Of a stretch of DNA of 64,000 nt, positions 16,562 to 21,338 are shown one piece after another. The stretch is from Frankineae bacterium MT45 (GTDB lineage Bacteria > Actinomycetota > Actinomycetes > Mycobacteriales > Jatrophihabitantaceae). Numbering within the stretch: the first letter of the stretch is position 1; every line of letters starts with the position of its first letter. The DNA lies in assembly GCA_900100325.1 (NCBI GenBank), contig LT629697.1, forward strand, positions 3,035,423-3,099,422, given 5' to 3'. Below the pieces are notes generated by a model. The model was given only the letters and a program-made list of their open reading frames with translations. It did not search any database and was not told where the DNA came from. Both the position numbers and the translations under genes were made by a program.

Positions 16562-17848
16562 TCAGTCGCTCGGCATTCCCTCCACGCGCAGCACGTTTGC
16601 CGGGCGGCGCAGGAATCCCATTCCACCCAGTCCGTCGACCGTCTTGGCCAGTGCCGCATCGGTCGCCGAGTGGGTGACCAGCACCAGGGTCGCCGCGTCC
16701 CCGCGCCCCTCCTGCCGGACCGTCTGGATACTGACGCCCTGCTCGGCAAAGGCTCCGGCCACAGTGGCGAGCACGCCGGGACGGTCGGCCACATCGAGGG
16801 CGACGTGATAGCGCGTCTGGACCTCGGCCATCGGGACCACCCGCAGGTCGGCGTAGGTGCTGGCGCCGGAGCCCCGGCCACCGTTGCGGCGATTGCGGGC
16901 CACCGCCACCAGATCGCCGAGGATCGCGCTCGCGGTCGGCGCGCCTCCGGCTCCTCTGCCGTAAAACATGAGGGATCCGGCCGCATCCGCCTCGACGAAG
17001 ACGGCGTTGTAGGCGTCGGAGACGCCGGCCAGCGGGTGCGTCCGCGGAATCATCGCCGGATGGACGCGCACCGAGACGCTCTCCTCGGTGCGCTCGCAGA
17101 TGGCCAGCAACTTCACCGTGCAGCCCATCGCCTTGGCGCTGGCGATGTCGGCCGAGGTGACGTCCGAGATTCCCTCCCGGTACACATCCGACGTGGTCAC
17201 CCGGGTATGGAAGGCCAGGCCGGCTAGGATCGCCGCCTTGGCCGCCGCGTCGAAACCGTCGATGTCCGCACTGGGATCGGCCTCGGCGTAACCGAGCTCG
17301 GTCGCCTCGGCCAGCGCCTCGTCGAAGCCCGCACCGGTGGCGTCCATCCGGGAGAGGATGAAGTTGGTCGTTCCGTTGACGATTCCCATCACGCGCGTGA
17401 TGCGGTCCCCGGCCAGCGACTCACGCAGTGGGCGGAGCAGCGGGATGGCCCCAGCCACCGCCGCCTCGTAGTAGAGGTCCACCCCGGCCCCGGCCGCCGC
17501 CTCGTAGAGGGTCGCGCCGTCCTCGGCCAGCAGTGCCTTGTTCGCACTCACCACGCTCTTGCCAGACTTCAAGGCCTCGAGCAGCAGCGAGCGCACCGGC
17601 TCGATCCCGCCGATCACCTCGATGACGAGATCGATGTCGGGCCGGGTGACGAGCGCCTGCGCATCGGTGGTGATTAGCGCCGGATCGATGTCCGGGTGAC
17701 GGTTCGGCCGGCGGACAGCCACGCCAGCCAACTCCAGCGGCGCACCGATGCGAGCGGCCAGGTCGTCGCCCTGCTCGTGCAGCAACCGGGCCACCTCCGA
17801 CCCGACGACGCCACAGCCCAGCAGGGCAACCTTCAATGAATCACTCAT
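16562..17848 (-). CDS. hom: homoserine dehydrogenase
   Basis: NAD(P)H-dependent reduction of aspartate semialdehyde to homoserine. ATG 17848 overlaps the lysA stop (ATGA) with AGGGTGG five bases upstream, giving 428 aa; an in-frame GTG at 17857 is less well placed. It has a Rossmann [10 protein letters not shown] at 11-20, the catalytic region [19 protein letters not shown] and a C-terminal ACT domain (about 345-428, [20 protein letters not shown]), the usual site of threonine feedback control. Confidence 0.96.
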
Positions 17849-19251
17849 TTGGTCCACCCTGGGTCCAGACGAAGCAGGTCGTCTTCGGTCTCGCGCCGAA
17901 GCAGCACGGAGGTCTCACCCACGCGCACGCCGATCACCGGCGGCCGCGGAACTTGGTTGTAATTACTGGCCATACTCCGGCAGTAGGCGCCGGTAGCCGC
18001 CACCGCCAGCAGATCACCGGGCGACACGTCAGCCGGCAGCCAAGCATCCCGCACGACGATGTCCCCGCTTTCACAGTGCTTTCCGACCACCCGGCTGCGG
18101 ACAAGCTCAGCCGACGAGACCCGATTGGCCAGGGTCACCGTGTACGCCGCATCGTAGAGAGCGGTCCGGATGTTGTCACTCATCCCGCCGTCAACCGAGA
18201 CATAGTTTCGCGTCAGCTGGTCGTTGATCACCACCGGCTTGATCGTGCCGACCCGGTAGACCGTGATCGCACCGGGGCCGACGATCGCCCGCCCCGGCTC
18301 CACAGCCAGGCGCGGTGGGGTGAGGTCGGCCGCGGCCGACTCGCGATCAACGATCTCGCGCAGCCGATCCGCGATCTCTTTGGCCGGCTGCGGCTCATCG
18401 CCACTGACGTAGGCGATACCGAGGCCGCCGCCGAGGTTGAGCACCTCGACCTCCACACCGGTGAGGTCGCGAAGCTCGCGGGCCAGTGCCACGACCCGGT
18501 GCGCCGCCACCTCGAAGCCCGCGGTGTCGAAGATCTGCGAGCCGATGTGCGAGTGCAGGCCGACGAGTTCGAGCGCGCCGGTCTCGATGATCTCCTGGGC
18601 CGCCCGCAGCGCATCGCCATCCTTCAGTGAGAATCCGAATTTCTGATCCTCGTGCGCGGTGGCGATGAACTCATGCGTATGAGCCTCGACGCCGACGGTG
18701 ACCCTGATCAGGACGCGCTGACGCACGCCGGCCGCCTGGGCGATCGAGGTGAGTCGCTCGATCTCGTCGAAGGAGTCGACGACGATGCTCCCGACGCCGA
18801 CCTCGACGGCTCGGGTGAGCTCCGAGACGCTCTTGTTGTTGCCGTGTAGGGCGAGACGCTCCGGCGGGAACCCGGCGGCCAGAGCGATCGCCAGCTCGCC
18901 ACCGGTGCAGACGTCCAGGTTCAGCCCCTCGGCCTCGATCCAGCGGGCCAGTTGAGTGCAGAGGAACGCCTTGCCGGCGTAGTAGACGTCGGCGCCGTCG
19001 AAGGCCGCGGCGTAGGCCCGGGCCCGGCCGCGAACGTCGGCCTCGTCCATGAAGAACGCCGGTGTGCCGTACTCGCCGACCAGGTCGCTGACCGAGACGC
19101 CGGCCAGGTGGAGTTCGCCGTCTATGCGCTCGATGGAGGCGGGCCAGATCGCCGGGTCAAGGTCATGGACGTCGGATGGCAGGCCAAATCCCGAGGATTC
19201 GGGTAGCACGTCGGCGTGCCGCGGACCGGCCGGGTGCGCTGATCGGCTCAT
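17845..19251 (-). CDS. lysA: diaminopimelate decarboxylase
   Basis: PLP fold-III enzyme making lysine from meso-diaminopimelate. 468 aa; Lys94 in YYAGKAF binds PLP, with the HSHIGSQ and [10 protein letters not shown] motifs and the active-site Cys in CESGD. The N-terminal 25 residues are less conserved. Its ATG overlaps the stop of a short repeat-encoded ORF by 4 bp, and its Shine-Dalgarno GAGGA lies inside an 80-bp tandem repeat. Confidence 0.96.
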
Positions 19252-19331
19252 GAGTCATTCCTCTTCGCGCGAGCGCTCATCGGGGCAATCGCTCCGCTCC
19301 TCGCTCGTACCTCGCTGCGATGCTCACTCAT
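19248..19331 (-). CDS. 27-codon repeat-encoded mini-ORF next to lysA
   Basis: It begins [13 protein letters not shown] and ends ...RAKRNDS, basic and Ser/Arg-rich. ATG 19331 overlaps the preceding mini-ORF's stop by 4 bp, and its own TGA overlaps the lysA ATG by 4 bp. GAGGA lies seven bases before the start. It may be only a coupling leader; whether the peptide matters is unknown. Confidence 0.35.
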
Positions 19332-19434
19332 GCGTCATTCCTCTTCGCGCGAGCGCTCATCGGGGCAATCGCTCCGCTCCTCGCTCGTACCTCGCTGCGA
19401 TGCTCACTCATGCGTCATTCCTCTTCGCGCGAGC
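19254..19434. repeat. 80-bp tandem repeat (2.3 copies) between argS and lysA
   Basis: Units 19254-19333 and 19334-19413 are identical over 80 bp; a third copy starts at 19414 and matches for 21 bp before diverging. On the minus strand each unit carries GAGGA and an ATG whose reading frame ends in a TGA overlapping the next unit's ATG. Similar GCGAGGAGCGGAGCGA-type repeats are scattered near gene starts in other actinobacteria, from general knowledge; no search was possible here. Confidence 0.95.
19328..19411 (-). CDS. 27-codon repeat-encoded mini-ORF (second copy)
   Basis: Same peptide as its downstream neighbour except for the last residue (Ala instead of Ser). It starts at ATG 19411 with a 4-bp overlap with the upstream mini-ORF, has the same GAGGA signal, and ends in TGA overlapping the next ATG. 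It is likely a duplication product. Confidence 0.35.
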   Translation of the reverse strand: MSEHRSEVRARSGAIAPMSARAKRNDA

Positions 19435-19461
19435 TCTCACGGCGGCAGAAGCTGCGCTCAT
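19408..19461 (-). CDS. 17-codon mini-ORF overlapping the argS stop
   Basis: Starts [17 protein letters not shown]. Its ATG shares one base with the argS TGA (TGATG), and its TGA overlaps the first full repeat ORF by 4 bp. Its second half is repeat sequence; the first half is unique. It links argS translation to the mini-ORF chain leading to lysA. Confidence 0.3.
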   Translation of the reverse strand: MSAASAAVRARAKRNDA

Positions 19462-21119
19462 CACATGCGGTCCGGCGCGCTCACGCCCAGCAGGCCCAGG
19501 CCGTTGGCCAGCACGACCCGGGTCGCCTCGCAGAGCCAGAGACGCGCATCGGTCAACGCCGTCGCCTCCTCGTCACCCTGGGGCAGCACCCGGCAGGCCT
19601 CGTAAAAACGGTGGTAGCCCCCGGCCAGCGACTCCAGGTAGTGGGCAATCCGGTGTGGTGAGCGCAGATCGGCGGCCGAGGCGACCACGCGGGGAAATTC
19701 GCCGAGCGCCCCGAGCAGGTCACTCTCCCGGTCGTGGACGAGTAGTCCGAGGTCGGGCTCAGCCGAACGGACGATGCCGAGGTCGGCCGCATTCCGCTGC
19801 AGCCGGGCCAGCCGGGCATGCGCGTACTGGACGTAGTAGACCGGATTGTCATTCGACTTCTTCGACAGCAGGTCGAGGTCGATGTCCAGCACCATGTCGA
19901 TCGAGGACCGCGACAGCGAGTAGCGCGCCGCGTCAACGCCCACGGCGTCGACGAGGTCCTCCATAGTGATCACCGTTCCGGCCCGCTTGCTCATCCGGAC
20001 TGGCTGGCCGTCACGCACCAGGTTCACCAGCTGGCCGATGAGCACCTCGACCACCGCCGGATCATCACCGAAGGCGGCGGCCGCCGCCTTCAGCCGGGCG
20101 ATGTACCCGTGGTGGTCAGCACCGAGCATGTAGATGCAGAGATCGAAACCACGACTGCGCTTGTCCCGCAGGTAGGCGAGGTCACCGGCGATGTAGGCCG
20201 CGTGGCCGTCGCTCTTGATCACCACCCGATCCTTGTCGTCGCCATAGTCGGTGGTGCGCAGCCACCAGGCGTTCTCGGAGTAGTAGAGGGCGCCGGACTC
20301 CTTCAGGTACGAGACCGCCTGATCAACCGCGCCCGACTCGTGGACCGAATTCTCGTGGAAATAGACGTCGAAGTCGACCCCGAACTCATGCATCGAGGCC
20401 TTGATCTCGCCGAACATCAACTCGACGCCCTGGCTGCGGAAAATCTCCTGCGCGACGTCGGGGGCAGCGGTGAGCACCTCGGGCGACCGGGCCACGACGG
20501 CAGCGGCGATCTCGTCGATGTACGTGCCGGCGTAACCGTCCTCGGGTACGTCCTGACCGTGGGCCCGGGCCAGCAGTGACCGCGCGAACCGGTCGATCTG
20601 CGCTCCGTGGTCGTTGAAGTAGTACTCCCGGGTGACGCTGGCACCGGTGGCCTGCAGGATCCGGGCCAGCGAGTCACCGACCGCGGCCCACCGCGTGCCA
20701 CCGAGGTGTATCGGACCGGTCGGGTTCGCCGAGACGAACTCGAGGTTGATGTTGCGCCCGGCATAGGCGCTCGAGTGGCCGAATGAGGGTCCCGCCTCGA
20801 CGACCGTGCGGGCCAACTGGGCCAGCACATCGGCGGCCAGGGTGATATTCAGGAACCCGGCGCCGGCCACCTGCACCGATGCGATTCCAGTAACCTCGCG
20901 CAGCCGGACCGCGATGGCCTCGGCGATCTCGCGTGGCGGCTTCCCCGCGCTCTTGGCCAACCGCAGGGCGATGTTCGTGGCGTAGTCACCATGATCGCGA
21001 TTCTTCGGGCGTTCGACGTGCGCCTCTTCAGGCAGCATTCCGGCGAAATCACCCGATTTCTGACAATCGGCGACGGCCGCGAGCACGGCGGCGGAGAGTT
21101 CAGCAGGGTTCACTCGCAT
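19461..21119 (-). CDS. argS: arginyl-tRNA synthetase
   Basis: Class I synthetase charging tRNA-Arg; a tRNA-Arg(CCG) gene lies 4.7 kb away. ATG 21119 ([13 protein letters not shown]) with AGGA four bases upstream gives 552 aa. The HIGH-type signature is [20 protein letters not shown], the KMSKS-type is VRMSKRAGT, and the C-terminal DALR anticodon domain (about 430-552) ends in [13 protein letters not shown]. It is probably the first gene of the argS-lysA-hom-thrC-thrB unit. Confidence 0.97.
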
Positions 21120-21338
21120 AATCCTAGTGGCGGGGGCGACTCTATTCGTCCCGGACCGGCCGCTCACCGAAGACTGACGGGCGACTTACCAGGCTGACCC
21201 AGCCTGGCTCGGGGTATGGTCAGCGCTGTCTTCACGGGCTGCTCTCAGGCGCGACTTCTACACTCAGAGGCGTCGCCTTATCACTTCTGCGTGCCGGACG
21301 ACACACGTACACCAGTAATCAGCAAGCAAAGGCAGGCC

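Follow-up and report, generated by a model that had tools for sequence, protein, structure and literature searches.

What is the 80-bp tandem repeat that lies between argS and lysA in Frankineae bacterium MT45, and how could translation pass through it from one gene to the other? The window considered here is the whole stretch of DNA that was analysed, 64,000 nucleotides in length. We believe, with a probability of about 0.72, that the array is a tandem pair of MIRU-type dispersed junction elements, which would let ribosomes step from argS to lysA. The MIRU-type family is seen across one actinobacterial order, the window array is one pair of its copies, and through the mini reading frame of the element, ribosomes can probably proceed to the gene that follows.

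On the minus strand, argS is followed by a 17-codon ORF, two 27-codon ORFs and lysA in an unbroken series of TGATG and ATGA overlaps (Table 1). This stop-start chain had been described in a sequence-only reading of the locus, and it is confirmed by the letters and the ORFs. The argS gene terminates in TGATG, which opens ORF1 (read from the letters), and ORF2, ORF3 and lysA each overlap the stop codon of the predecessor by ATGA. Both 27-codon ORFs of the units begin at ATGAGTGAGC and end in the ATGA of the following start, and ATGAGC alone is common to the starts of ORF1 and lysA (by eye). According to Tandem Repeats Finder, the array has a period of 80, 2.5 copies, 96% matches and a score of 372. 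The two units had been called identical, which is incorrect in one base near the 3′ end; of the partial third unit that had also been claimed, a match is present, restricted to the 3′ part of the unit (model positions 28-80). The name lysA is our assumption from the protein family and the context. No promoter-like sites were found around the array. Two terminator-like matches lie on the plus strand at 19319-19336 and 19399-19416, one per unit boundary, where shuffles expect none. Downstream, a minus-strand ORF of 431 aa at 16562-17857, presumably a homoserine dehydrogenase, shares 13 bases with the end of lysA when its first listed GTG is taken as the start, and the coupled chain may therefore continue past lysA.

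Table 1. Features of the argS-lysA array and the adjoining genes, in positions of the window
Feature	Position	Strand	Remarks
argS, arginyl-tRNA synthetase, upstream gene	19461..21167	-	Pfam DALR_1, Arg_tRNA_synt_N; TIGR00456 above cut-off; TGA within TGATG
ORF1, 17 codons; 3′ part matches tail of unit	19408..19461	-	
Element unit 1, 80 bp	19332..19411	-	
Element unit 2, 80 bp, one base unlike unit 1	19252..19331	-	
ORF2, 27 codons	19328..19411	-	
ORF3, 27 codons; TGA overlaps lysA ATG	19248..19331	-	
Proposed hairpin core, unit 1 (unit positions 9-36)	19376..19403	-	Covariation, 112 aligned units; missed by standard folding
Proposed hairpin core, unit 2 (unit positions 9-36)	19296..19323	-	Covariation, as unit 1
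lysA (start 19251), Orn/DAP/Arg decarboxylase family, downstream gene	17845..19251	-	

The unit is dispersed in the host genome. When the 4.23-Mb single-contig genome was searched at the DNA level, the window and four further places were found, and a model built from the sequences of six units recovered the same five full-length loci with E below 1e-19. The model also matches the partial copy in the window and a tail-only copy at G000:C1:445908-445950 (L046), both with E 2.1e-4, and all remaining host matches are weak (E 0.05 and above). The four other full-length loci lie at purQ/purL, pntA/pntB, purN/purH and acyl-CoA dehydrogenase/carboxyl transferase, gene names that we assume from Pfam families and general knowledge. 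All five full-length loci are located between co-directional genes and have a mini-ORF, which in the purN-purH copy terminates in TAG, two bases ahead of the next ATG. The tail-only copy has CCGGATGAG on both sides and occupies what we take, from the translations, to be the dnaN-recF junction; judging from this copy, the element looks modular.

Copies are also present in relatives. At E <= 0.01, the model matches 42 of 61 genomes including the host, with up to 51 matches in one genome. At E <= 1e-6, an order-wide survey found matches in 96 of 397 genomes, and in 19 of the 24 genomes of the host family, host included; approximately 11 candidates were scored per genome in this survey, and its per-genome copy numbers are lower bounds. 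Four genomes (G004, G008, G013 and G014) have no match in the order-wide survey, yet weak ones in the 61-genome search. With four further host loci and 19 of 24 family genomes, the repeat unit is more than a product of chance. A stricter exact pattern was matched by ten stretches among named genomes, each of which belongs to a metagenome bin labelled Frankiales bacterium RYN_135, Pseudonocardiales bacterium BP_200 or Pseudonocardiales bacterium BP_205. In genus g18, which is Mycobacterium-like, nine sampled genomes have 1-5 matches each (lower bounds) and a related core is present; in one of these genomes, the element adjoins an mshA-like gene, and a phosphoglycerate mutase close to 1rii lies downstream, where the name mshA and the source of 1rii are our assumptions. 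A comparison of the array with phage and plasmid collections yielded no match. For the analyses of position and frame, 60 relative loci were taken from about 150 best matches by genome and score, not by context; numerous matches of that list, some of them in G016, G018, G020, G021 and G022, are outside the sample. The 60 loci, the four host loci and the window form 65 sequences with 66 arrays and 94 units. Further degenerate unit tails lie directly upstream of the counted arrays in L098, L126 and L099, and arrays can therefore exceed the length that the model reports.

Sites without the element are found at the same gene junctions. In the sister species G001, argS and lysA are separated by a linker of 46 bases versus 209 in the host, where it is longer by two units and 3 bases. 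The G001 linker, which is without the element, has a 16-codon ORF that is connected to the two genes through TGATG and ATGA. The window array is thus a pair of copies that is present in the host and not in the sister species. Because G001 has a linker ORF at this place, ORF1 may partly descend from an older linker; the two ORFs are listed as unrelated sequences. Among the 30 argS-lysA loci that were read, from 39 matching genomes, the element occurs in the host only, and one of the 30 (G033) is without lysA downstream. With the host as the single carrier at this junction, the tuning of lysA by unit number that the sequence-only reading had suggested is a speculation. At purQ-purL, the element is restricted to the host (G000) and G001 of 24 genomes, and G008, G012 and G013 have a plain 4-base ATGA overlap. 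At pdhA-pdhB, for which 22 loci were read, G015 has a plain TGATG, G017 two units and G022 a differently arranged copy.

A minority of the arrays have direct repeats at start codons. After 16 of the 66 arrays were dropped, at least 4 bases were common just before the first and the downstream starts in nine of the 50 usable arrays, among which the window array is not included; permuted partners gave a mean of 0.8 and a maximum of 5, and none of 2000 permutations was as high as 9. The longest clear direct repeats are those of L104 (12), L118 (9) and L103 (8). In L098 (14), part of the match comes from another copy of the repeat, and L006 and L096 are orthologues of each other; therefore, the independent cases number about seven. 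The remaining 41 arrays have fewer than 4 repeated bases, including the host pntA-pntB, purN-purH and acyl-CoA loci. In the copies from Mycobacterium-like genomes, the gene has its first bases doubled, namely, ATGACTTC in L233, GCATGAGTGTCACCG in L227 and GCCATGAAGA in L235 (by eye). The sequence-only reading had considered the unit a dispersed and possibly mobile actinobacterial repeat, and the host copies, the copies in relatives and the direct repeats support this view; the search for the unit in this genome and in relatives found it elsewhere, whereas its absence there would have spoken against the view. We infer that the element moves, or has moved, as a unit.

The element lies in one orientation, pointing with the genes, and mostly at stop-start junctions. 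In 63 of the 66 arrays, a long ORF (90 codons or more) on the same strand ends between 150 bases before and 60 bases after the element start, and in 33 of those 63, the stop of this ORF overlaps the element start by exactly 4 bases. At the other end, the mini-ORF stop and the start of a long downstream ORF (90 codons or more) overlap in 41 of the 66 arrays (4 bases in 40 and 1 base in one); for the two remaining frames, the arrays with such a stop-start overlap number 13 and 8. An SD-like run of at least 4 stands before 27 of the 41 coupled starts, compared with 25% at random positions. Of the 25 arrays without a 4- or 1-base overlap, eight lie within 20 bases, eight lie further away, three are without a long ORF and six were not evaluable; some are in-frame N-terminal extensions. 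In L108, L110, L128, L131, L143 and L144, the frame from the element start continues into the downstream gene, and because its own start opens this frame, the element may have become a new N-terminus at these six loci.

Moreover, indels in the element mostly keep the frame. Core lengths fall into one class modulo 3 in 40 of 53 distinct cores, and of 25 tandem periods, 12 equal 2 modulo 3 (overlap), 11 equal 0 (in-frame fusion) and two equal 1; the binomial tests give P 4e-10 for the core lengths and 0.0035 for the tandem periods, values that are optimistic because the sequences are related. The element is thus located in operons at a stop/start overlap (ATGA or TGATG) in one orientation, and some copies have a short direct repeat around the start; a mini-ORF through the element is opened by the upstream start codon, and its stop overlaps the downstream start codon. 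According to the mechanism that we propose, because the mini-ORF stops overlap the next starts, ribosomes ending argS could re-initiate stepwise through ORF1, ORF2 and ORF3 into lysA. Tandem copies would arise by later local duplication and be kept mostly where a chain or an in-frame fusion is readable. Coupling of lysA to argS by the chain, which the sequence-only reading had suggested, is a candidate role that fits the anatomy of the locus, that is, the overlaps, the frame-keeping indels and the SD-like runs, and such coupling is presumably what lets insertions survive.

The alignment of 112 units also points to a fold. Of the 104 units with letters at both positions 10 and 35, 74 have C at position 10 and G at position 35, whereas 28 have G and C there, and both forms occur inside single genomes (G000, G001, G015 and G017). 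The middle of some copies is a perfect hairpin, for example, GGGCC-GAA-GGCCC or GGCGC-GCA-GCGCC. The proposed stem consists of seven Watson-Crick positions, interrupted by G·A, A·A and U·G mismatches, and 98.2% of cells pair; when the stem is slid by 1-3 columns, 12-60% of fewer cells pair. Doubly changed cells number 42 versus 10 in shuffles (0 of 500) and the stem pairs with a double change number four, which is reached by 24 of 500 shuffles, although the structure was drawn after the covariation was seen and relatedness inflates the shuffle tests. Standard folding found nothing notable in four of five units (the purN-purH unit has z -2.27), RNAalifold gave no base pair for the alignment of 112 units, and no Rfam family reaches its gathering score (sR19 has 20.1 bits against a threshold of 45). 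The hairpin, to which covariation alone points, is proposed as a candidate fold of RNA or of single-stranded DNA. The C-G/G-C exchange and the hairpin-forming replacements of the middle could also mean that the array is a structured RNA in the mRNA, riboswitch- or thermometer-like, with the mini-ORFs as a by-product. We consider this unlikely: the downstream genes are without a common pathway, the Rfam and folding results are those just given, and the overlap and frame rules would be left unexplained.

The peptides deserve separate attention. Each 27-residue peptide has six Arg codons and one Lys, and the array lies beside argS and lysA, a setting in which an Arg- or Lys-sensing leader peptide might regulate lysA by ribosome stalling. 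We regard this as very unlikely, given that nearly the same mini-ORF precedes purL, pntB, purH and the carboxyl transferase gene, that none of the other 29 argS-lysA loci read showed the element, and that variability is about the same at the three codon positions (0.33, 0.40 and 0.40 bits). The frame is kept, and because the codon positions vary about equally, there is no sign of a selected peptide. No more credible is a functional micropeptide that has spread for its own sake; such a peptide would account for the single length class of most distinct cores, but the third codon positions are without excess change, unrelated hairpins replace the middle, and many copies in other families match only the first half of the element. 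The least credible reading, a purely local tandem duplication (VNTR) without a dispersed family, would suit the near-identity of the tandem units and is contradicted by the dispersed copies in the host genome and in relatives.

Under the preferred reading, a junction element that would carry ribosomes from gene to gene, the closest known system is the MIRU. As described in excerpts of PMC12548453, which reports Supply et al. (1997), MIRUs are short units, often in tandem, that are located inside operons and apparently inserted at start codons. Excerpts of PMC4213456 and PMC2453075 give MIRU units of 77 and 53 bp; the 80 bp of the present unit equal 2 modulo 3, as do these lengths. In the excerpt of PMC4213456, the senX3-regX3 MIRUs are limited to M. 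leprae and the M. tuberculosis complex, whereas the review PMC12548453 states that MIRUs are present in many mycobacteria. In these excerpts, MIRUs appear as mycobacterial features that are used mostly for strain typing. The likenesses are the short units, both tandem and dispersed (94 units in 66 arrays); an internal ORF with a 4-base overlap to the next gene in 40 of 66 arrays, through which coupling may act; and start-codon insertion, with element-free sites and direct repeats in nine of 50 arrays. By its architecture, as MIRUs are described in the excerpts of PMC12548453, the element would work like a MIRU, with the M. tuberculosis MIRUs compared by description. A pattern derived from the MIRU40 primer, not from the repeat sequence, had no match in 396 genomes of genus g18. 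The differences are that the host belongs to family f1, not to f7, in which the Mycobacterium-like genus g18 is placed, and that up to 51 model matches per genome, a covarying hairpin and a modular tail are found here. Because the host is not a mycobacterium and MIRUs were compared by description only, we call the element MIRU-type and do not assign it to the MIRUs. Additions to the MIRU architecture, seen here in a non-mycobacterial family, are the covarying hairpin with G·A mismatches, the mostly frame-keeping indels and a peptide that bears no mark of selection.

Other short elements resemble the present one in part. REP sequences are dispersed, short, hairpin-bearing and non-autonomous, and they occur with RAYT (Y1) transposases; the element described here is also dispersed, short, hairpin-bearing and non-autonomous. 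To our knowledge, REPs have not been described as carrying coupled ORFs. A search for the Y1 transposase family (PF01797) had no match in the 24 family genomes and was positive in five of 14 control genomes, a difference from REP with RAYT. MITEs are likewise short and non-autonomous, and direct repeats occur at some sites of the present element; however, these repeats vary in length and sit at the start codon. Our literature searches met no description of such elements outside mycobacteria, which does not prove their absence, and the element core as letters was present in only four papers, with titles on the gut microbiota of mice or on RNA of humans or animals.

A bolder view can be held only tentatively, and we find it rather doubtful. 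According to this view, the family is an order-wide, start-codon-seeking mobile one, in which the recognised form would be a folded single strand (a tandem G·A hairpin with a switchable C-G/G-C pair) moved by an enzyme; its survival in operons would stem from a duplication of the start codon on insertion, by which the stop-start coupling is rebuilt, and the M. tuberculosis MIRUs would be a relict branch. With tens of matches per genome and element-free sites in relatives, the origin, target choice and mobilisation of the family become testable outside mycobacteria, in organisms that are harmless. The family suggests a general rule, namely, that a tightly coupled operon can tolerate an insertion as long as the frame remains readable and the inserted DNA is followed by a regenerated start codon.

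Several junctions carry other sequences. The pdhA-pdhB loci of G004, G006 and G008 (L264, L268 and L266) have other small inserts, unlike the element, at the same stop-start junction; two of the three are rich in inverted repeats, and in G004, a GGAGGTGTCGGCATGAGCG-like stretch around the start codon is found on both sides of the insert. At argS-lysA, L163 (G034) has an independent tandem repeat that spans the argS stop, and L172 (G015) has short independent GATGTGATGAGCCAC-like repeats, both with a stop-start overlap.
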